A stretch of DNA of 28,096 nucleotides, from the IMG/VR virus record IMGVR_UViG_3300019776_000345, positions 1 through 28,096 of that record. One strand, 5' to 3'. The position numbers were made by a program, and so were the translations under genes. The notes beneath the pieces were generated by a model. The model did no database searches and was not told the DNA's origin. It saw only the letters and a program-made list of their open reading frames with translations. Source of the DNA: a virus. Positions 3,101 to 21,088 of this stretch are shown piece after piece (position 1 is the first letter of the stretch; each line of letters starts with the position of its first letter).

Positions 3101-4518
3101 ATGAGAAGGGAAACCGCACCAACACTGCAGCCATCACGGCCTCTGAGGACGTACTGTTCAAGCGTGAGTTTGACAGGACCTCTGTTGTCGAGGGCTTCTT
3201 TGGACGCGGTGAGGACATCCTTAGGGCTGCTCCCCTTCTCCGCATCCTCGTTCCCTTCTACCGCACCCCGATCCGCGTGGTCGAGGCTGGTATCAAGTAC
3301 TCCCCCGGTGTGAACCTCCTGCTTCACAAGACCTTCAGGGAAGACTTCCTTGGTCGCAACGGCACATACGCTAGAGACGTAGCCCGGGGTCGAATGCTGT
3401 TCGCCACGTCACTTATGTTGACTACGTATGGCTGGGCAGCCTCTGGGAACATCACTGGTGGTGGCCCGCTGGACCCTGCAGCCAAGAAGTCCCTAATGGA
3501 CACTGGTTGGAAGCCGTATCACATCCGTCTCCCTGGTACTGACACCTGGCTCGACTATTCACGTATGGACCCCATTGCCTTCCCAATGAAGCTCATTGCG
3601 AACTTCAGTGAGAGGCACCGCATGTATCAGTCTCGTGCTGAGGCAGGCGAGAAGGAAGACAGCAGCGAACTCGCTGACTACCTCCTGATGGGTGCCGCAT
3701 CATTCGCTGGTGCTGTGAAGGATATCAACATGCTCCAAGGGCTGAACAAGTTCTTCAACATGTGGGAGATCGCACAGCAGGATGAAGAGTGGGGCATCAA
3801 GCGTGACCAGATGGGTAAGGAACTCGCACAGCTCATCCAAGGCTTCGTCCCCAACTTCGTTAGGAAGATTGGAGATGCAGTCGAGCCTGATCGTGTCGAT
3901 CCTCAGACCTTGAATGACATCATTCGAGCGTCACTCCCTGGGGCTCGAGGCCCTGTGAACCTCTCCTACACCATCACTGGTAAGGTGAGGACCATTGGTA
4001 ACCCTGTAGAAGGCTTCGTGTGGCTCCCGTGGGGCGGTGTCAATGATACCCCTGATGGGCGTGAGAACTACGTCTACTCGGAGCTGGCTATCGCTGAGAT
4101 GGTCACTGGTAAACCCCTGCGGCTCCCGTACACCCATCCTGACTACGCTGGCCTGGACCTCCGCACTGTACGCACTTCTGACAACTCGATGTCCATGTAC
4201 GACCTGTACAACCGAGTCCTGTCGAACACCACGTACAACGGTGTCACCTTGCAAGACGCTCTCTACAAGGAGCTGAAGCGGAATGACTCCATCGGACAGA
4301 CCAGCCCAGGTAACTCAAGGTACATCTCTGATCGCACCAAGAACATCAAGGCGATCTTGAACCAGTACCGTGACATCGCCTGGGAAAAGGGTGTGCGTCC
4401 AGAGCTGGAGAAGAACGAGGTGATGAAGGCCCGCAAGCAGCATCTCGACATGCTCAAGGGACAGGCTAACGAACCCTTCAAATATTCAATCGAACAACTA
4501 CTTGGACCCAACAGATAA
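136..4518 (+). CDS. Large internal virion (DNA-ejection) protein, T7 gp16-like position
   Basis: This 1460-residue protein is the largest in the window and sits directly before the tail fibre, as T7 gp16 does. In T7, gp14-gp16 form the ejected inner core that lets DNA cross the cell envelope. The N-terminus (about 1-110) is Ala/Glu/Asp-rich. A Gly/Ala-rich hydrophobic stretch lies near residues 320-350. A Pro-rich linker with three repeats of a PGDARSxF-type motif occupies about 419-476. Helical, charged segments follow, and an aromatic/hydrophobic patch at about 796-835 (FFSNLTRG, LLFNFKTLQINAM) could contact membrane. I see no lytic transglycosylase motif like that at the N-terminus of T7 gp16. 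The ATG follows a TAAGGA ribosome site by 8 bases. The stop overlaps the next ATG (TAATG). Function is inferred from size and position. Confidence 0.8.
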   Translation: MEDIQSLLQQLEDADAAGDTAKATAIADEISKLDAQTAAQAGPDVTNTATAGDQAPAQTNTPAAPPVDPVLQGALTSMEEADAASATDPLEKMRAEEIAKRIELGTPAALKKADFTNDVEVPEFKYVPHDVVNPNKFRYNYQTPGPNVEQSTLKEEDLIHDPNWLASARILYKMNKGYEFEGSDQDLHNYGLMVSSTLNNNFAAIGQAYAYYKGANPKAVKALIYNIEAGQATDTNWSNTGRALGAQLGDPSNYIGGFALKAVAGEAIKVSSVVALKQLLKRELLLASGTEGAVLASGMGGQDVAKQDLKVDAGQQEAIDWTQAALQAGIGGAAGMGLSALGAGVGVLMSKEGRAALTQWIDDAKNAGWETRTDIGNDIPMGDGWRSAYIDENGNEVMEPPQGTMTKVIDANGNESAPDVQPGGLRDQFLKNPPQAKPQAAGDLKPGDARSDFIFGPPAPRAAADLQPGDARSAFLRGATEAPTDQATTPAWTTKIALDDGSEVDVPTWEKMMAEGDKRADLTRPIEPPEETLTPKAKQERAAGDKARTNKMASGTAKDVETGISEITQIVKNERFDKIPGNHAEATRVVARIVEPILEVFKRGVDDEIGDVLMDPVKSNDLLAIKDAVTTVMSKVKAEALKASESYQAAKSAAESSPTVTKDMVDRLDTLEAEWKKWTDLSDKVQPVYNKLGSFAGLLLNHSQMVQDGIGAAARRISFKELREKGFNENEVMSAFIQAAQLAHKAANESKLYRSIKRDYFKALAEGNMTALDTLAKKLEKELQRQAKLKGQKTYSFFSNLTRGIMEYYTNSLLFNFKTLQINAMTAWAEHALRGAYGRVGGILSMNAGHAIRRGSIMRQAMRQSRSTARSMAFKALMEDFTDHGARYADMEHNVIPGKLGKTVRIPMRIMALTDTFTAHQSYIAEVAATSADQFAASHAGRIADVKALLAKADAKAKPKLEARLKKLNEGYDEKLKAFVEKRIDEAFDEKGNRTNTAAITASEDVLFKREFDRTSVVEGFFGRGEDILRAAPLLRILVPFYRTPIRVVEAGIKYSPGVNLLLHKTFREDFLGRNGTYARDVARGRMLFATSLMLTTYGWAASGNITGGGPLDPAAKKSLMDTGWKPYHIRLPGTDTWLDYSRMDPIAFPMKLIANFSERHRMYQSRAEAGEKEDSSELADYLLMGAASFAGAVKDINMLQGLNKFFNMWEIAQQDEEWGIKRDQMGKELAQLIQGFVPNFVRKIGDAVEPDRVDPQTLNDIIRASLPGARGPVNLSYTITGKVRTIGNPVEGFVWLPWGGVNDTPDGRENYVYSELAIAEMVTGKPLRLPYTHPDYAGLDLRTVRTSDNSMSMYDLYNRVLSNTTYNGVTLQDALYKELKRNDSIGQTSPGNSRYISDRTKNIKAILNQYRDIAWEKGVRPELEKNEVMKARKQHLDMLKGQANEPFKYSIEQLLGPNR
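1390..1563 (+). repeat. Three-copy degenerate repeat inside the internal virion protein
   Basis: Residues 419-430, 443-454 and 465-476 share the pattern D-[VL]-[KQ]-P-G-x-x-R-x-x-F-[LI], spaced 24 and 22 residues apart and separated by Pro/Ala linkers. Copies two and three are closest: both read PGDARS, with AAGDLK and AAADLQ before it. At the DNA level the last two copies are diverged tandem duplicates 66 bases apart. The repeats may be short linear motifs in a disordered linker; no function can be assigned. Confidence 0.7.
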
Positions 4519-7326: not shown

Positions 7327-7723
7327 ACTCTCGCCCACAAGCGAGGGTCGGCTCAAAGGCGTCCACCCTGACCTCGTTCGGGTGGTACGCCGAGCTGCCG
7401 CCGATTGGCACGACGACAACCTCTCCTTCATTGTCACATGCGGTCTCCGCACCTTGGCAGAACAGAAGGTACTCGTTGCCAAGGGCGCATCCAAGACCCT
7501 CAACTCTCGACACATCCCAGGCAAGGATGGCTATTCCAAAGCAGTGGACCTCGCAGCGATGCTCAATGGTAAACTGAAGTGGGACTGGCCGCTCTATGCC
7601 AAACTGGCTGCATCCATGAAGGCTGCGGCTGCTGCTGAGAAGGTCACCATCGAATGGGGTGGTGACTGGCGCACGTTCAAGGACGGCCCGCACTTCCAGC
7701 TCCCAAAGAAACTCTACCCGTAA
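7322..7723 (+). CDS. Endolysin, M15-family (D-Ala-D-Ala carboxypeptidase / L-Ala-D-Glu peptidase type)
   Basis: The 133-residue protein has the hallmarks of zinc M15 peptidases that cut peptidoglycan cross-links: SRH at 62-64 and VD at 75-76 for the first two zinc ligands, then E111, D115 and PHF with H124 near the C-terminus. Eight or so residues between His64 and Asp76 make this loop longer than the common HxxGxAxD pattern. No signal peptide or membrane anchor is seen, so it should need a holin, and the next gene fits that. The start is GTG, after AAGGA. It takes the lysis role that T7 gives to its gp3.5 amidase, and no amidase gene is present between the endonuclease and primase genes. Cleavage specificity is uncertain. 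Confidence 0.88.
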   Translation: MKLSPTSEGRLKGVHPDLVRVVRRAAADWHDDNLSFIVTCGLRTLAEQKVLVAKGASKTLNSRHIPGKDGYSKAVDLAAMLNGKLKWDWPLYAKLAASMKAAAAAEKVTIEWGGDWRTFKDGPHFQLPKKLYP

Positions 7724-11469: not shown

Positions 11470-11634
11470 ATGCTTCAAGACCCCAAGGTATACGCCGCAA
11501 CGCTGATGTATTGCTGCAACTACAACATGGCTGACGCAATCAAGATGGCTGTGGAAGCGCAAGCCAAGTTTCCCGGCATGTCTGACGGGTATCTCGTTGA
11601 CGTAATCATCGCTATCACTGAAGCAGGAAGGTAA
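11470..11634 (+). CDS. Hypothetical early protein, 54 aa
   Basis: First gene after the gene-free region. ATG follows GGAGA by 6 bases. The product (MLQDPKVYAATLMYCCN...) is probably helical: one segment around 17-33 (NYNMADAIKMAVEAQAK), another around 39-53 with Ile/Val. I do not recognise a family. Being first in line from the expected host promoters, it holds the place of T7 gene 0.3 (anti-restriction), but it does not resemble Ocr and has no strong negative charge, so no function is claimed. Confidence 0.6.
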   Translation: MLQDPKVYAATLMYCCNYNMADAIKMAVEAQAKFPGMSDGYLVDVIIAITEAGR

Positions 11635-16146: not shown

Positions 16147-16533
16147 ATGAAACAGGGCGACACCATGTTCGACATTGCTAACTTCTTGAGCGGCGCTGAG
16201 GCCTTCTATGCCATCAGTGACCAAATGCCTGTGAGCTACATCCTCACCCTCTTGTGGGTGGCACAGAACCCTGATGGCAACCAGCTCGATCTTGAGAAGT
16301 ACCTAGGCAGCTCCAACGCCACCGCGTCTAGGGCTGTCAAATACTGGTCCAAGTGGAAGTCACCACGGCAGGGTGGCACCCACGGGGCTGACTACATCGA
16401 CATCTATCAAGACCCTGCAGACCGTAGGTACAATCGGCTGAGGCTCACGCCTACTGGCAAGATGTTCATCGCCAACTTGAAGGAGAAGTTCAAATGGCAA
16501 GGCAACACAGGGACGGCTGGCAAGCAGACGTGA
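16147..16533 (+). CDS. MarR-like winged-helix transcriptional regulator
   Basis: The 128-residue protein has the MarR fold pattern: N-terminal helices, VSYILTLLWVAQ (29-40), a helix-turn-helix with recognition helix about SSNATASRAVKYWSKW (55-70), and a wing with DPADRRYNRLRLTPTGKMF (89-107), close to the MarR consensus DxRDRRxxxLxLTxxG. Such dimers bind palindromic operators. Its 3' end overlaps the integrase gene by 40 bases, so the two are co-expressed, and this is the best candidate for a lysogeny repressor or an integration/excision control protein. AGAGG is 8 bases before ATG 16147; ATG 16165 is an alternative. No other repressor-like gene (CI type) is present in this window. Confidence 0.75.
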   Translation: MKQGDTMFDIANFLSGAEAFYAISDQMPVSYILTLLWVAQNPDGNQLDLEKYLGSSNATASRAVKYWSKWKSPRQGGTHGADYIDIYQDPADRRYNRLRLTPTGKMFIANLKEKFKWQGNTGTAGKQT

Positions 16534-17465
16534 TCCACGAGGGGAAGCGGCTGCGAAAGCAGTTCGCTACCCAGCTAGCTGCAGAACAGTGGGAAGACTC
16601 GTATCGCATCGGTTCCCCTGACAAGACCAAGCCCACCTTGCTGGACTACGTGAAGCCCAGGATCGACATGATCTGGGAACGAGGGTCTAAGCATGGCGAC
16701 AAGCAGTTTCGTCATCTGCGATACATGCACAAGTTCATCGACTGCCCAATGGAGGACATTACACAGCTCAAGGTCAATGAGCTCATCTCTGGTCTACAGA
16801 AGCAGGGCGACACTGGCGGCACCATCAACAGGAAGCTGGCCGCGCTATCCAAGGCCCTCAAGTATGCCAAGCACGAGGGTGCCTACTCTAGGGAGCTGCC
16901 TAGGTTCACACGTCAGCGTGAGCCCAAGGGCCGCATCCGTTACCTTGAGTGGGACGAGGAGAAGCGCCTGTCTACCGAGCTGGCCAAGTTCAACCCGCGC
17001 TACCCTGACTTCGTCGCCTTCATGTGTGACACAGGGGTGCGCTGTAGCAACGGGGTGGACCTCCTGTGGAAGGACGTGAAGCTACCTGTCGGCAATGGTC
17101 GAGGACAGATCACCTTGTGGGAAACCAAGCAGGGTGAGCCCCAGACCGTACCCCTGACCGCCCGTGCGGTCGAGGCCCTACAGCGGCAAGACAAGAAGGC
17201 CACAGGCCCTTGGAAGTGGCTCAACCCTTGGACCCTACGCAAGCACATCAAGGAGGCGGCGATAGCGGCTGGCCTTGGGGATGAGATCGTGATCCACACC
17301 TTCAGGCACACCTGTGCATCCAGGCTTGTGATGAAGGGGGTAGACATCAGGAGGGTCCAGAAATTCATGGGCCACAAGACAATCACTATGACACTGAGGT
17401 ACGCCCACCTCGCTCCCAAGGAACTGGAGAGCTGCGTGGATGCCCTCGATATGATGGGAGTGTGA
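16494..17465 (+). CDS. int: Tyrosine integrase (site-specific recombinase)
   Basis: The 323-residue protein has an N-terminal arm-binding-like part (DGWQADVIHEGKRLRKQFAT), a core-binding SAM-like region (about 50-140) and the catalytic domain with Arg183, Lys212, His268-x2-Arg271, His294 and nucleophile Tyr303 in TITMTLRYAHL. All catalytic residues are present, so the enzyme should be active. It would insert the phage genome into the host chromosome at an att site. The gene lies upstream of the RNA polymerase gene, the place of int in T7-like cyanophages such as P-SSP7, and about 400 bases before a tRNA-Cys-like sequence. It starts within the MarR-like gene. TCACTATGAC at 17387-17396 inside it encodes the ITMT of the conserved motif and is probably chance. 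Confidence 0.95.
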   Translation: MARQHRDGWQADVIHEGKRLRKQFATQLAAEQWEDSYRIGSPDKTKPTLLDYVKPRIDMIWERGSKHGDKQFRHLRYMHKFIDCPMEDITQLKVNELISGLQKQGDTGGTINRKLAALSKALKYAKHEGAYSRELPRFTRQREPKGRIRYLEWDEEKRLSTELAKFNPRYPDFVAFMCDTGVRCSNGVDLLWKDVKLPVGNGRGQITLWETKQGEPQTVPLTARAVEALQRQDKKATGPWKWLNPWTLRKHIKEAAIAAGLGDEIVIHTFRHTCASRLVMKGVDIRRVQKFMGHKTITMTLRYAHLAPKELESCVDALDMMGV

Positions 17466-17468
17466 GAT

Positions 17469-17666
17469 ATGACGGATAAGATCAAGCCTGAGATGGTGCC
17501 GCTCGCAGTCCTTCGCGCCTATTCCAAAGCCCTTGGGGAGAACGGAGAACCGCGTCACGCCATCGCTGCCGCGCTCAACGCATGGCCGGGGATGCGAGTT
17601 AGGCTGAGGTACTTCCATCCGACCAAAGAAATCATCCTCACGACACAACTGGAGGACAACACATGA
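17469..17666 (+). CDS. Hypothetical small protein, 65 aa
   Basis: Product MTDKIKPEMVPLAVLRAYSK then ALGENGEPRHAIAAALNAWP, then a strand-rich, basic end (RVRLRYFHPTKEIILTTQLE). GGGAG lies 8 bases before ATG, and the gene begins three bases after the integrase stop. An excisionase is often found beside int, and size would fit, but I see no clear winged-helix or MerR-like Xis motif. Function unknown. Confidence 0.6.
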   Translation: MTDKIKPEMVPLAVLRAYSKALGENGEPRHAIAAALNAWPGMRVRLRYFHPTKEIILTTQLEDNT

Positions 17667-17767
17667 ACTGGCCCAGCTTCTTAGGGGTACTGACTGGTGG
17701 TGTATTCATTGGGCTCTGGCTCTCCAGCCACCTCATTGATCCTCGACGTAGGGACTGGTGGGACTAG
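17663..17767 (+). CDS. Small single-span membrane protein, 34 aa
   Basis: Product MNWPSFLGVLTGGVFIGLWL then SSHLIDPRRRDWWD has one span (about 5-21) and a basic/Trp-rich tail after it. ATG overlaps the previous stop (ATGA) and GGAGG is 9 bases upstream. It is the last gene before the putative attP. If attP is correct, it would sit at the prophage edge; superinfection exclusion is one idea without direct support. Confidence 0.55.
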   Translation: MNWPSFLGVLTGGVFIGLWLSSHLIDPRRRDWWD

Positions 17768-17780
17768 GGTAGTCCCTTGC

Positions 17781-17839
17781 GTGACATTTCACCTTGTCAC
17801 ACCCGTGACACACGGCTATACCAGTCACGCCCCAGTCAC
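17781..17839. repeat. Cluster of GTCAC/GTGAC repeats beside the putative attP
   Basis: GTGAC or GTCAC occurs at 17781, 17796, 17805, 17824 and 17835. TGTCAC-ACCC-GTGACA (17795-17810) is a perfect inverted repeat. CCAGTCAC is directly repeated at 17821 and 17832, exactly 11 bases, about one helical turn, apart. Between integrase and attP core, such helically phased repeats suit arm-type integrase or excisionase binding sites. Confidence 0.55.
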
Positions 17840-17861
17840 CTAAGTGTCTGATATTACTCAC

Positions 17862-17914
17862 GGCCTCGTGGTAGAGTGGCTATACAGAGGACTGCAAATC
17901 GGTTCTCGAGCTCC
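17862..17914 (+). other. tRNA-Cys(GCA)-like remnant, putative attP core
   Basis: The sequence starts like a tRNA: acceptor-like GGCCTCG, a D-arm GTA...TAC with GAGTGGCTA, and an anticodon loop CTGCAAA (GCA, Cys) preceded by GAGGA. After CAAATC it loses tRNA form: the 3' anticodon stem does not pair well, variable loop and most of the T-arm are missing, and it ends in GAGCTCC, reminiscent of an acceptor end with a small deletion. It cannot be a working tRNA. Phages with tyrosine integrases commonly carry part of a tRNA gene as attP, with crossover at the anticodon loop. Its place downstream of int fits. The matching host tRNA-Cys would confirm it. Confidence 0.45.
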
Positions 17915-17926
17915 TACACAAGTCAA
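17914..17926 (+). promoter_or_regulatory. 13-bp motif copy at the edge of the tRNA-like element
   Basis: CTACACAAGTCAA matches the best copy at 11 of 13 positions and follows the tRNA-like sequence directly. It is not near a start codon, so it cannot be explained as a translation signal. Confidence 0.5.
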
Positions 17927-17949
17927 GACACTTCCAACACGCTGATAAT

Positions 17950-17976
17950 AAAGGCCCATACTGCTTGGGCCTTTTT
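17950..17976 (+). terminator. Strong factor-independent terminator
   Basis: AAAGGCCCA, seven-base loop, TGGGCCTTT forms a perfect 9-bp GC-rich stem with A-run before and T-run after (TTTTT then GTTTT). It stops early/integrase transcription before the RNA polymerase gene. In the circular or prophage form with attP at 17862-17914, it would lie between the attachment site and the RNA polymerase gene. Confidence 0.92.
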
Positions 17977-17990
17977 GTTTTCCCTATAGA

Positions 17991-18081: not shown

Positions 18082-18204
18082 GGTTCTAGAAATACCCGCC
18101 ACTAACGCTAATACGCACCAATCCTGCCCTACGTGACAGCTCCCCAGCCGTCATGAGGGGGTAAGGGGGTGTGTAATACAAGGTAACTCTATATGTATAA
18201 CTGG

Positions 18205-18278
18205 AGTATAACTCTAGTTAAACTGGTATTAATAGGTGATAGTAGGCACCCTTAACATCAGTTAACTAGAGTTATACT
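18205..18278. repeat. 17-bp inverted repeat immediately upstream of the RNA polymerase gene
   Basis: AGTATAACTCTAGTTAA (18205-18221) and its exact complement TTAACTAGAGTTATACT (18262-18278) are separated by 40 bases; CTG/CAG extends the match after a one-base gap. Further partial copies, GTAACTCTA at 18183 and GTATAACTGG at 18195, lie just upstream. The right arm ends two bases before ATG 18281 and contains a -10-like TATACT. As DNA it looks like a set of operator sites allowing looping; as RNA it could form a long stem covering the start. Confidence 0.85.
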
Positions 18279-18280
18279 TT

Positions 18281-21088
18281 ATGTCTTCCTCTTGTCTTCC
18301 TGTGTCACACAGCGACGACTTGGGAGAATACTATCCTTCGACTCAATCGCTATACACTGGCTCACAAAAGGATACGCCATTGAAGATTGACATGACTGAG
18401 CGTCAGGTCGCCCTAGAAGCGGCGAACCTGGAGCAGTTTCGAATGGTAAGGGATAGGCGTCTGAGGTCTGATATCAAGTCGGGTCGCTACGCTGAAACGA
18501 TGGAAGGTAGGTCGATCTCCAGCCTCCTTCTGTCTCCCTTGTCCCAGGCCCTAGAGGACTACCGTGCTAAGACCGTAGAAGGTCGTGTCGGGGTCAAGAG
18601 GGATGAGGTCGCTGCACACCTGATTGGTGAGCTGACCCCTGAGGTCACCGCCCTGATCTTCCTGTCTACCCTGTTGAACCTTCTCTCCATGGTCGAGCGG
18701 GGGCAGCCCAAGCCTGTGATGCTGTCGGCGTTCTGCCGCCACTTCGCTGGCAACTGCCTCGATGAGCTGGCCGTGCGCGAGGCCTTCGCTATCCGCCCCA
18801 AGATGGTCAAGGCCATGATGGCTGACGCCAAGTCCAAGGCGTCTCCGCGCCTGTGGACCAAGAGGGCCATGGGAAACTACGTGAACTTCAAGCAGCCCGC
18901 CTTCGTCACACGCTTCAAGCACGTCGAGGGGTTCTGGGGTAACATTGGCGCTGCCGTGCTTGAGGTCGCCTCTGCCCTGCACCTCGTGCAGATCGTGACG
19001 ATCTACAAGGACAAGCGGTCCTACTACCACGTATACCCGACCAACGGCCTCGTTCTCCTGATGGAGGAAGCGGCCCGCAAGGGTAGGCTCGTGTCTACCG
19101 ACTATGACCCCATGGTCTGCCCTCCCCGCCCTTGGGGATTGGATGCCAAGGGTGCTGCTGGTCGTGAGTACGGCGCTGACTTCTTCGTCGGCGGCTACCT
19201 CACTGGTCACATCAGGCCGTACCCGTTCGTCAAGGCGAAGGGGCAGTCTCGTAAGATGGTGAAGGACGTTCGTCGCAAGTCTGCCGACATGAGGACACTG
19301 CTTACACAAGTGAATGCCCTGCAGAACACCGCGTGGCATGTCAACCCTGTGATCCTCAGCGTGATGGAAGAACTCTGGTTCAACCGTCGAGGCAACATTG
19401 CAGGACTACCGAATGCCGTGACCTTGGAAGAGAAGCTAGCGGGTGGCCATGTGCTGCCTGATGACAAGCTGTCTCGGTTCAAAGAGATCGATGAGGACCG
19501 GAGGAACCTATCCCTCAGGCTCTACATCAATCGCATGATCGCCAAGGCCAAAGCGTTTGGTCACTATGACGAAATCTACATGCCCTATTCCGTTGATAGC
19601 CGTGGGAGGGTTTATGCGATCCCTGTAGCACTCAACCCTCAGGGACCGGACTATCAGAAAGCCCTCCTTGAGTTCGCTCAAGGGAAGCCTATCAGCTCCA
19701 GGGATCGTAGCTGGTACTGGCTGGCTGTCGGTATCGCTAACACCTACGGCAAGGACAAGCTCTCGCTTGATGACCGTGTCGAATGGGTGAAGGCGAACCA
19801 AGACCTGATCCTCAGCGTGGCTACTAATCCACTCACCGACCTTCGCTGGACCACTGTGTCTGAGCCGTGGCAGTTCCTCCGGGGATGTCTCGACTGGAAG
19901 GGCTGGAAGGATCAGGGTGACGGCTTCCTGTCTCATTGGGCAGTTGCTGTCGATGCCACATGCTCTGGACTACAAGTCTACTCCATGCTGTTCAAGGATG
20001 AGGTAGGTGGGCGATCTGTCAACCTAGTTCCTGGTCTTGAACGACAGGACATCTATGGCGATGTGGCCAATCGAGTGAAGGACCGTCTTCGCGAGATACT
20101 GGTGACCTCTACACTTGTGCAGAGGAAGCAAGAAGCTCGTGAGGTATGGAATGACGCTATCGCTGTGTTCAAAGCCCAAGGGTTCGACATGCAGCTCCTT
20201 CGTCCCACCGTGTTCAACATGGCGACCAAGGATTTGCTGGAGAGCTACAAGGGTGAGGATGCACTGATCGAAGCGCTGACCCAAGCGAAGAAGGCTTACA
20301 ACAAGGTTCGCCGCATCTTAGGTAGGGCCAACATTGCTAGGCACCTTCTAACATGGGACTTTGACCGTAGCGCCACGAAGCGCCAGGTGATGACGCTGCC
20401 ATACGCGGCAACACAGAGGTCGTGCTTTCTTTACACTCGCGATTACCTAAGCGAACGCATCAAGTCTGGAGAGGCCCTGCCACACGGCTGGTTCAAGAAG
20501 GACTTCGATAATCACGCCATGTTGCTCAGTGATAACATCTGGGCTGCCATTGGTGAGGTCGTGGTAAAAGCGAAGGAAGGGATGACTTGGTTCCAAGCGT
20601 CCATCCGTGAGTATGTGAAGAAGAACCCTGACAAGCCGTTCGGCTGGTACGCACCTGACGGACTGTTCTGCTTCCAAGCGAAGTGGGACATGGACACTCG
20701 CCGTGTAGAGACGTTTCTCAATGGCGAGATGATCAAGCCTTCGTTCGAAGTCGAGACTGATGAGGTTGATCCTAGGGGCATGGCGCAAGCCGTGGCTCCA
20801 AACATCATCCACTCAATCGACGCTGCGATACTCAGGGCTGCCACTGGTAAGGCAATCACACGACAAGAACCACTGAGGCACTTCGCGTTCATTCACGATA
20901 GCTTTGGTGTTCACGCTGCAGACATGGAGGTCTTCTTGAACGAGTGCTTGAAGCCCGCGTTCGTAGAGATATTCAAGTCTGACATTCTCTCCTCCTTGAA
21001 AGACTCGTTTGGCACTGAGCTGCCGCCTCCCTCTCAGGGCAACCTGGATTTGGATGGCGTCCTCTCTAGCCAGTTCTGCTTCTCCTAA
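18281..21088 (+). CDS. Single-subunit DNA-dependent RNA polymerase (T7 gp1-like)
   Basis: The 935-residue protein aligns along T7 RNA polymerase (883 residues). Catalytic Asp558 is in DATCSGLQ, Lys700 and Tyr708 in RSATKRQVMTLPYA, and Asp873 in FIHDSFG; the C-terminus is GNLDLDGVLSSQFCFS against T7 GNLNLRDILESDFAFA. It transcribes middle and late phage genes from its own promoters. The start is uncertain: ATG 18281 gives an N-terminus of T7-like length but lacks a ribosome site; TTG 18380 has AAAAGGA 7 bases upstream; ATG 18392 begins MTERQVAL. If the TATACT at 18273 is a -10 box, the shorter starts are right. The gene follows a terminator and an inverted repeat, so it seems to have its own controlled promoter. 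An exact 13-bp motif lies at 19302 inside it. Confidence 0.97.
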   Translation: MSSSCLPVSHSDDLGEYYPSTQSLYTGSQKDTPLKIDMTERQVALEAANLEQFRMVRDRRLRSDIKSGRYAETMEGRSISSLLLSPLSQALEDYRAKTVEGRVGVKRDEVAAHLIGELTPEVTALIFLSTLLNLLSMVERGQPKPVMLSAFCRHFAGNCLDELAVREAFAIRPKMVKAMMADAKSKASPRLWTKRAMGNYVNFKQPAFVTRFKHVEGFWGNIGAAVLEVASALHLVQIVTIYKDKRSYYHVYPTNGLVLLMEEAARKGRLVSTDYDPMVCPPRPWGLDAKGAAGREYGADFFVGGYLTGHIRPYPFVKAKGQSRKMVKDVRRKSADMRTLLTQVNALQNTAWHVNPVILSVMEELWFNRRGNIAGLPNAVTLEEKLAGGHVLPDDKLSRFKEIDEDRRNLSLRLYINRMIAKAKAFGHYDEIYMPYSVDSRGRVYAIPVALNPQGPDYQKALLEFAQGKPISSRDRSWYWLAVGIANTYGKDKLSLDDRVEWVKANQDLILSVATNPLTDLRWTTVSEPWQFLRGCLDWKGWKDQGDGFLSHWAVAVDATCSGLQVYSMLFKDEVGGRSVNLVPGLERQDIYGDVANRVKDRLREILVTSTLVQRKQEAREVWNDAIAVFKAQGFDMQLLRPTVFNMATKDLLESYKGEDALIEALTQAKKAYNKVRRILGRANIARHLLTWDFDRSATKRQVMTLPYAATQRSCFLYTRDYLSERIKSGEALPHGWFKKDFDNHAMLLSDNIWAAIGEVVVKAKEGMTWFQASIREYVKKNPDKPFGWYAPDGLFCFQAKWDMDTRRVETFLNGEMIKPSFEVETDEVDPRGMAQAVAPNIIHSIDAAILRAATGKAITRQEPLRHFAFIHDSFGVHAADMEVFLNECLKPAFVEIFKSDILSSLKDSFGTELPPPSQGNLDLDGVLSSQFCFS
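19302..19314 (+). promoter_or_regulatory. Reference copy of the 13-bp motif inside the RNA polymerase gene
   Basis: TTACACAAGTGAA, used as the reference because the half-sites TTACAC and GTGAA are most nearly symmetrical with a two-base centre. It codes for LHKxx-free residues (the reading frame gives L-T-Q-V-N), so position inside the gene does not depend on a protein motif I recognise. An intragenic site in the polymerase gene is what a roadblock (stoperator) would look like. Confidence 0.45.

Follow-up and report, generated by a model that had tools for sequence, protein, structure and literature searches.

A tRNA-Cys 5′ half between the integrase and RNA polymerase genes as the probable attachment site of an uncultured T7-like phage

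Attachment sites (attP) with which temperate phages target tRNA genes classically carry the 3′ half of the tRNA, as in many lambdoid and P2-like phages, and sequence identity to one side of the crossover regenerates the target gene. The locus described here, from a T7-like phage represented by an incomplete contig (an IMG/VR virus record of 28,096 bases, all of which is referred to below as the window), would regenerate its target in the same way but from the opposite side, as the element supplies a 5′ half. Such an element must also supply the transcription of the tRNA that it rebuilds. The questions are whether the 5′ half of a tRNA-Cys that lies between the integrase gene and the gene of the phage RNA polymerase (RNAP) is an attP, which host gene it would target, and what the sequences around it contribute.

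The T7-like gene set of the window includes a kinase-like gene (phrog_15752), a MarR-like regulator, an integrase, two small ORFs and a T7-type RNAP, and the order around the site runs from the MarR-like regulator through the integrase, the 5′ tRNA half and a terminator to the RNAP (Table 1). The integrase had been predicted to be intact, and the family alignment agrees, as the R-K-H-R-H-Y catalytic set is complete (R183, K212, H268, R271, H294 and Y303). The regulator, which is likely to govern the choice between lysis and lysogeny, could be aligned with MarR-family proteins from LUZ100, CRP-171, HTVC200P, RHEph21 and two of the contigs discussed below (L128 and L129), and the order regulator, integrase, RNAP is also annotated in LUZ100, CRP-171, HTVC200P, RHEph21 and RHEph01. 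Searches of Pfam and PHROG with the 65-aa ORF downstream of the integrase returned no match. A further short ORF (MNWPSFLGVLTGGVFIGLWLSSHLIDPRRRDWWD, window 17663–17767), with one likely membrane helix, is located directly before the arm region of the putative attP. The true start of the RNAP may lie at about 18380–18392 rather than at 18281, and the match of the phrog_414 profile begins at residue 37.

Table 1. Coordinates of the features at and around the putative attP in the window
Feature	Position	Strand	Basis or detail
MarR-like winged-helix regulator	16147..16533	+	phrog_9665, PHROG E=1.4e-18
Tyrosine integrase	16494..17465	+	Pfam PF00589 E=4e-26; PHROG integrase
65-aa ORF between integrase and putative attP	17469..17666	+	ORF listing
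Five GTCAC/GTGAC boxes	17781..17839	.	17781-, 17796+, 17805-, 17824+, 17835+
tRNA-Cys 5′ half, probable attP core	17862..17900	+	sequence GGCCTCGTGGTAGAGTGGCTATACAGAGGACTGCAAATC
Anticodon loop CTGCAAA	17892..17898	+	probable strand-exchange (overlap) region
P′ side of the putative attP, unrelated to tRNA	17901..17949	+	read from sequence
Intrinsic terminator between attP core and RNAP gene	17950..17981	+	9-bp stem, 5 GC, T-rich tail
17-bp perfect inverted repeat	18205..18278 (arms 18205-18221 / 18262-18278, 40 bp apart)	.	repeat search
T7-like single-subunit RNA polymerase	18281..21088	+	PF00940 E=1e-73; phrog_414 E=1e-181

The half comprises the acceptor strand, the D-arm, the 5′ strand of the anticodon stem, the anticodon loop and the first two bases of the 3′ stem strand. 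Its identity to alphaproteobacterial tRNA-Cys starts at base 1, covers 35 of 39 positions and takes in the anticodon loop before it breaks off; the closest intact gene type, used for this comparison, is that of L009, L012 and L021. Three shuffled windows reached at best 22 of 39, and the tRNA-Cys of Shinella was matched by Blastn (E = 1e-4). The original prediction had placed a tRNA-Cys-like 5′ half at 17862–17914, which was correct as to the half and too long as to its extent, since the similarity stops at 17900. What it had taken for a damaged 3′ half is unrelated DNA: neither T-arm nor acceptor 3′ strand was found past 17900, and the P′ arm of the phage stands in their place. ARAGORN reported no tRNA anywhere in the 28,096 bases of the incomplete contig, Rfam reported none in the window, and the cloverleaf with T-arm and acceptor stem of a functional phage tRNA gene is absent from the site. 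An Rfam match to sR5 was rejected because it scored under its cut-off.

All four differences from the intact gene fall on the D-stem (linear positions 11, 12, 22 and 23) and make up both members of two base pairs, with C11:G24 replaced by U:A and G12:C23 by A:U, which gives a stem of GTA/TAC (GGCCTCGTGGTAGAGTGGNTATACA). Four changes that amount to two compensated pairs are not expected from random drift, which argues that the copy, or the host gene from which it came, has been selected as a tRNA.

Single-protein searches of IMG/VR with the integrase or the RNAP of the window gave no matches, and an alignment of the integrase family was needed; the scan with this alignment provided a set of 80 integrase loci, some of which are near-duplicates. 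In 39 of the 80 loci, a structural search placed a tRNA 5′ half directly behind the integrase, where shuffles of the whole set would give 0.8; 17 of these halves belong to whole tRNAs (ARAGORN), about 20 are half-only, and one or two are doubtful. The isotype at the integrase–RNAP site is mostly Leu, and Cys, Gln and Arg occur too. On the integrase tree, half and whole must have replaced one another at least five times and the isotype must have changed at least five times, both being raw counts with no null model. In the window as in many relatives, the identity to tRNA ends no more than 2 bases 3′ of the anticodon loop.

Three other uncultured T7-like contigs from IMG/VR (L213, L128 and L129) share the gene order of the window and carry a tRNA-Cys 5′ half that ends in CAAATC. 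L213, the closest relative, the terminase region of which has about 50% amino-acid identity to that of the window, encodes a MarR-like ORF, an integrase, a thyX-like ORF, the tRNA-Cys 5′ half and an ORF that is the RNAP by position. It differs from the window in the thyX-like gene before the attP and in a quite different integrase, and its half is identical to that of the window at 36 of 39 positions. Over 13 kb of L213 there are just three DNA-level matches to the window, among which the non-coding half is the most identical, and the half of the window is better conserved than most of the genome. The thyX-like gene itself (a FAD-dependent thymidylate synthase at 11535–12257 of L213, between integrase and attP) was recognised by eye only. 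L128 and L129 have the order MarR, integrase, 5′ half, RNAP and carry a different tRNA-Cys (GGCGGCATAGCC...) that is cut at the same base, which indicates that the half follows the host tRNA and not an RNA of the phage. In L129, a complete tRNA-Met gene is found about 110 bases past the tRNA-Cys half, before the RNAP. One further candidate, L212, was rejected, as its 18 shared bases are a chance match.

These comparisons make it highly improbable that the phage merely acquired a tRNA-Cys gene whose 3′ half then decayed, with no role in integration. Some relatives do have a whole tRNA-Leu, or in L168 a tRNA-Cys, at the same place, as this account would have it, but even phages that are unrelated have the cut at the anticodon loop, whether the isotype is Leu, Cys, Gln or Arg, and decay would produce neither D-stem pairing that is kept by compensatory change nor a half that is better conserved than most of the genome. 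We give the least credence to the half being a functional RNA of lytic growth, either a tRNA-half decoy or a leader that ends at the terminator. It does lie on the sense strand with a strong terminator 50 bases further on, yet its sequence tracks the tRNA type of the host instead of a phage-conserved RNA, the folding of 17862–17976 showed no significant structure against shuffles (z = -1.3), and the terminator is missing in most relatives. As a separate observation, L131, L132, L134, L148, L168 and others have a complete tRNA (Leu in most, Cys in L168) where other loci have only a 5′ half; it looks as though integration and excision turned one form into the other.

An attP of this form has a precedent. 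In P-SSP7, the integrase is followed by GGGAGTGTGGCGGAATTGGTAGACGCGCCGGACTTAAAA, which matches a tRNA from its first base up to and including the anticodon loop but no further, and which by its form is a tRNA-Leu 5′ half. Experiments have shown that both P-SSP7 and S-TIP37 insert into tRNA-Leu and that, in S-TIP37, int as well as attP is required for this (PMC8776855). Like these T7-like cyanophages, the window presents the integrase, then the tRNA 5′ half, then the RNAP; more specifically, a tyrosine integrase with a MarR-like regulator stands upstream of a T7-type RNAP, and a sense-strand tRNA fragment, which begins at base 1 and reaches the anticodon loop, lies between integrase and RNAP, both of which characterise the P-SSP7-type module. 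Whereas the cyanophages target tRNA-Leu in cyanobacteria, the window has a tRNA-Cys, probably of an alphaproteobacterium, together with a MarR-like regulator and a cluster of GTCAC boxes.

Considered jointly, the halves of the relatives, the enrichment of GTCAC described below and the P-SSP7 precedent indicate that the site is very probably an attP with its crossover in the anticodon loop. We assign a probability of roughly 0.9 to the reading that a T7-like phage, temperate or at any rate able to integrate, uses this site as its attP and the tRNA-Cys(GCA) gene of the host as its target. The attP reading of the original prediction is backed by independent T7-like relatives, in gene order as well as in sequence, and by the attP that P-SSP7 uses, also a 5′ half. 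The accompanying remark that similarity to the 5′ half is unusual holds for tRNA-integrating elements generally, only a minority of which use the 5′ side (9 of 88 in Sinorhizobium meliloti; PMC11476347), but not for the T7-like group, throughout which it recurs.

The core could also be used for an integration that destroys the host tRNA, with a complete phage tRNA taking over. Such tRNA-dependent lysogeny, in which the host tRNA is replaced by a complete phage tRNA, is known from some mycobacteriophages (PMC10865867) and from the Rhizobium phage vTRX32-1 (PMC8631192). RHEph01 and vTRX32-1 (Paadamvirus, Rhizobium) resemble the window in the order MarR, int, attP, RNAP, in a crossover motif, CAGATTTAGGTT, that lies in a tRNA gene, here tRNA-Leu, and in an alphaproteobacterial host; they differ in that the core is just 12 bp, the host gene is disrupted and its place taken by a tRNA-Leu that the phage carries whole (PMC8631192), and no 5′ half is rebuilt. 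Related T7-like phages with a whole tRNA-Leu near the integrase would suit a replacement of this kind, which we nevertheless regard as improbable for the window, given that ARAGORN detected no tRNA gene over the 28 kb of this incomplete contig and that homology over a whole 5′ half would be pointless unless the tRNA were rebuilt.

The five GTCAC/GTGAC boxes that had been noticed before the half were all located (Table 1). They include CCAGTCAC twice, at 17821 and 17832 and thus 11 bases apart, and the perfect inverted pair TGTCAC-ACCC-GTGACA at 17795–17810. With five boxes in 59 bp, this is the densest cluster of the window, and none of 300 Markov-1 simulations went beyond four. Among strand-collapsed pentamers in the integrase–RNAP gaps of about 47 related loci, some of them near-duplicates and the window excluded, GTCAC ranked top (99 observed against 23 expected). 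Boxes lie at -82, -70 and -61 upstream of the tRNA half in L213 and at -81, -66, -57, -38 and -27 in the window, and this similar spacing together with the enrichment across the gaps of the relatives identifies the boxes as a recurring part of these sites; they are missing in some relatives, L128 and L129 among them. The boxes are probably arm-type sites of the integrase or sites of an accessory factor.

It is possible, though we hold it for the less likely alternative, that the boxes are instead operators of the MarR-like regulator, which would be compatible with the attP reading. TGTCAC-N4-GTGACA forms a perfect 16-bp dyad as is typical of dimeric regulators, and more GTCAC boxes occur before the RNAP, at 18133 and 18304. 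On the other hand, the cluster flanks the core on the side of the integrase and contains direct repeats 11 bp apart, as is often the case for arm sites, and a better operator candidate exists nearer to the RNAP, where the arms of the 17-bp repeat (AGTATAACTCTAGTTAA and TTAACTAGAGTTATACT), unique in the window, hold two TAACTNNAGTTA palindromes. As candidate operators, the TAACTNNAGTTA pair (18205–18278) may be where the MarR-like regulator binds, in keeping with what has been hypothesised for temperate phages of the T7-like kind. A perfect inverted repeat of 8 bp, AAGTGTCT at 17842–17849 and AGACACTT at 17926–17933, is placed almost symmetrically about the tRNA half and could represent further integrase sites or chance.

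The terminator that had been predicted beside the attP was recovered by a terminator scan as a stem at 17950–17974 followed by a T-run. A terminator no more than 130 nt after the half was found in just 4 of 20 half-carrying relatives, and it was therefore rejected as a general feature of the group; the terminator at 17950 is a local feature. LUZ100 likewise has a terminator after its integrase.

Evidence on integrated forms comes from two kinds of elements. In the T7-like prophages G009, G010, G011 and G013, the integrase lies at most about 65 bp from one end and the RNAP near the other, and this placement at opposite ends is as expected if the crossover lies between the two genes. We searched the T7-like prophage records for att repeats, and tRNA junctions are not visible in them because the records are trimmed at gene ends; no prophage of the window phage and no attL/attR pair was seen. 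The second kind are alphaproteobacterial elements (L006 with L009, L055 with L034, L063 and L014), in which one end has a tRNA-Cys 5′ half that breaks off past the anticodon loop and the opposite end an intact copy of the gene, edge-cut in the case of L014. A half and an intact gene at opposite ends of an element imply that regeneration from the 5′ half occurs at tRNA-Cys in alphaproteobacterial elements. In L063, the sequences upstream of the intact and the broken copy are unrelated, which fits a new, element-borne upstream region. Such alphaproteobacterial prophages, and phage Yong-M2-251, share the tRNA gene, the 5′ half and the break with the window; they differ in not being T7-like where examined and in their integrases, which are convergent to and downstream of the half where detected. 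In about 30 more viral contigs, a tRNA-Cys 5′ half of the alphaproteobacterial type ends at a break after CAAAT(C), and several of these contigs have a convergent integrase; integration at the tRNA-Cys 5′ half looks common in Alphaproteobacteria.

The host of the window phage is probably alphaproteobacterial as to class, judging from its tRNA half. The nearest tRNA-Cys differs from this half at the four compensated D-stem positions. The exact 31-mer was absent from the genome collection scanned and an exact attB was found in no bacterial genome, so that we infer host and integration from the comparisons above.

In the mechanism that we propose, the integrase would bind the GTCAC/GTGAC boxes as arm sites as well as a core with the anticodon stem-loop at its centre, and strands would be exchanged within the 7-bp anticodon loop. 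At the integrase end, the phage-borne 5′ half would then be linked to the 3′ half of the host gene to give a complete tRNA-Cys, and the host's own 5′ half would be displaced to the prophage end next to the phage RNAP and the terminator. Integration would thereby place the regulator–integrase module and the RNAP gene at opposite ends of the prophage. After integration the terminator would halt transcription from the host tRNA promoter into the RNAP gene, and before integration it would block read-through from the integrase operon. The rebuilt tRNA-Cys would have to be transcribed from phage DNA, either by the MarR–integrase operon or from a local promoter; a promoter scan found no good promoter ahead of the half. 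A further, rather doubtful extension is that, across this group of phages, an essential host tRNA gene comes to depend on the prophage: the rebuilt tRNA-Cys would be read from the MarR–integrase operon while the native promoter fires into the terminator by the RNAP, and a single recombination would couple lysogen survival, integrase transcription and polymerase silencing.

A tRNA 5′-half attP was already known from T7-like marine phages with tRNA-Leu; new here are tRNA-Cys as the target and the probable alphaproteobacterial host. An uncultured T7-like phage in this way gains an integration site that can be put to the test and a likely host class. More broadly, the cyanophage-type tRNA 5′-half attP is widespread in integrase-bearing T7-like phages, its targets shifting among Leu, Cys, Gln and Arg, and GTCAC/GTGAC boxes recur beside such sites. 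tRNA halves are easily overlooked because tRNA finders do not report them. Fragments of this kind, 39–46 bp in length, have earlier been used for host assignment (PMC3861242), and tRNA-half attP sites could serve systematic host prediction.

At 7649–7701 of the window, 53 bases are 92.5% identical to an endopeptidase gene of the Leptolyngbya phages Lbo-JY16 and Lbo240-yong2; the phage collection gave no other near DNA match for the first 25 kb of the window. At 4001–4039 of the 'Synechococcus phage' Yong-M2-251 (L002, OM868082.1), next to its integrase, there is a tRNA-Cys 5′ half with exactly the sequence found in Shinella and in further alphaproteobacteria. This suggests that an alphaproteobacterium present in the culture, and not PCC 7002, may be what the phage really infects.
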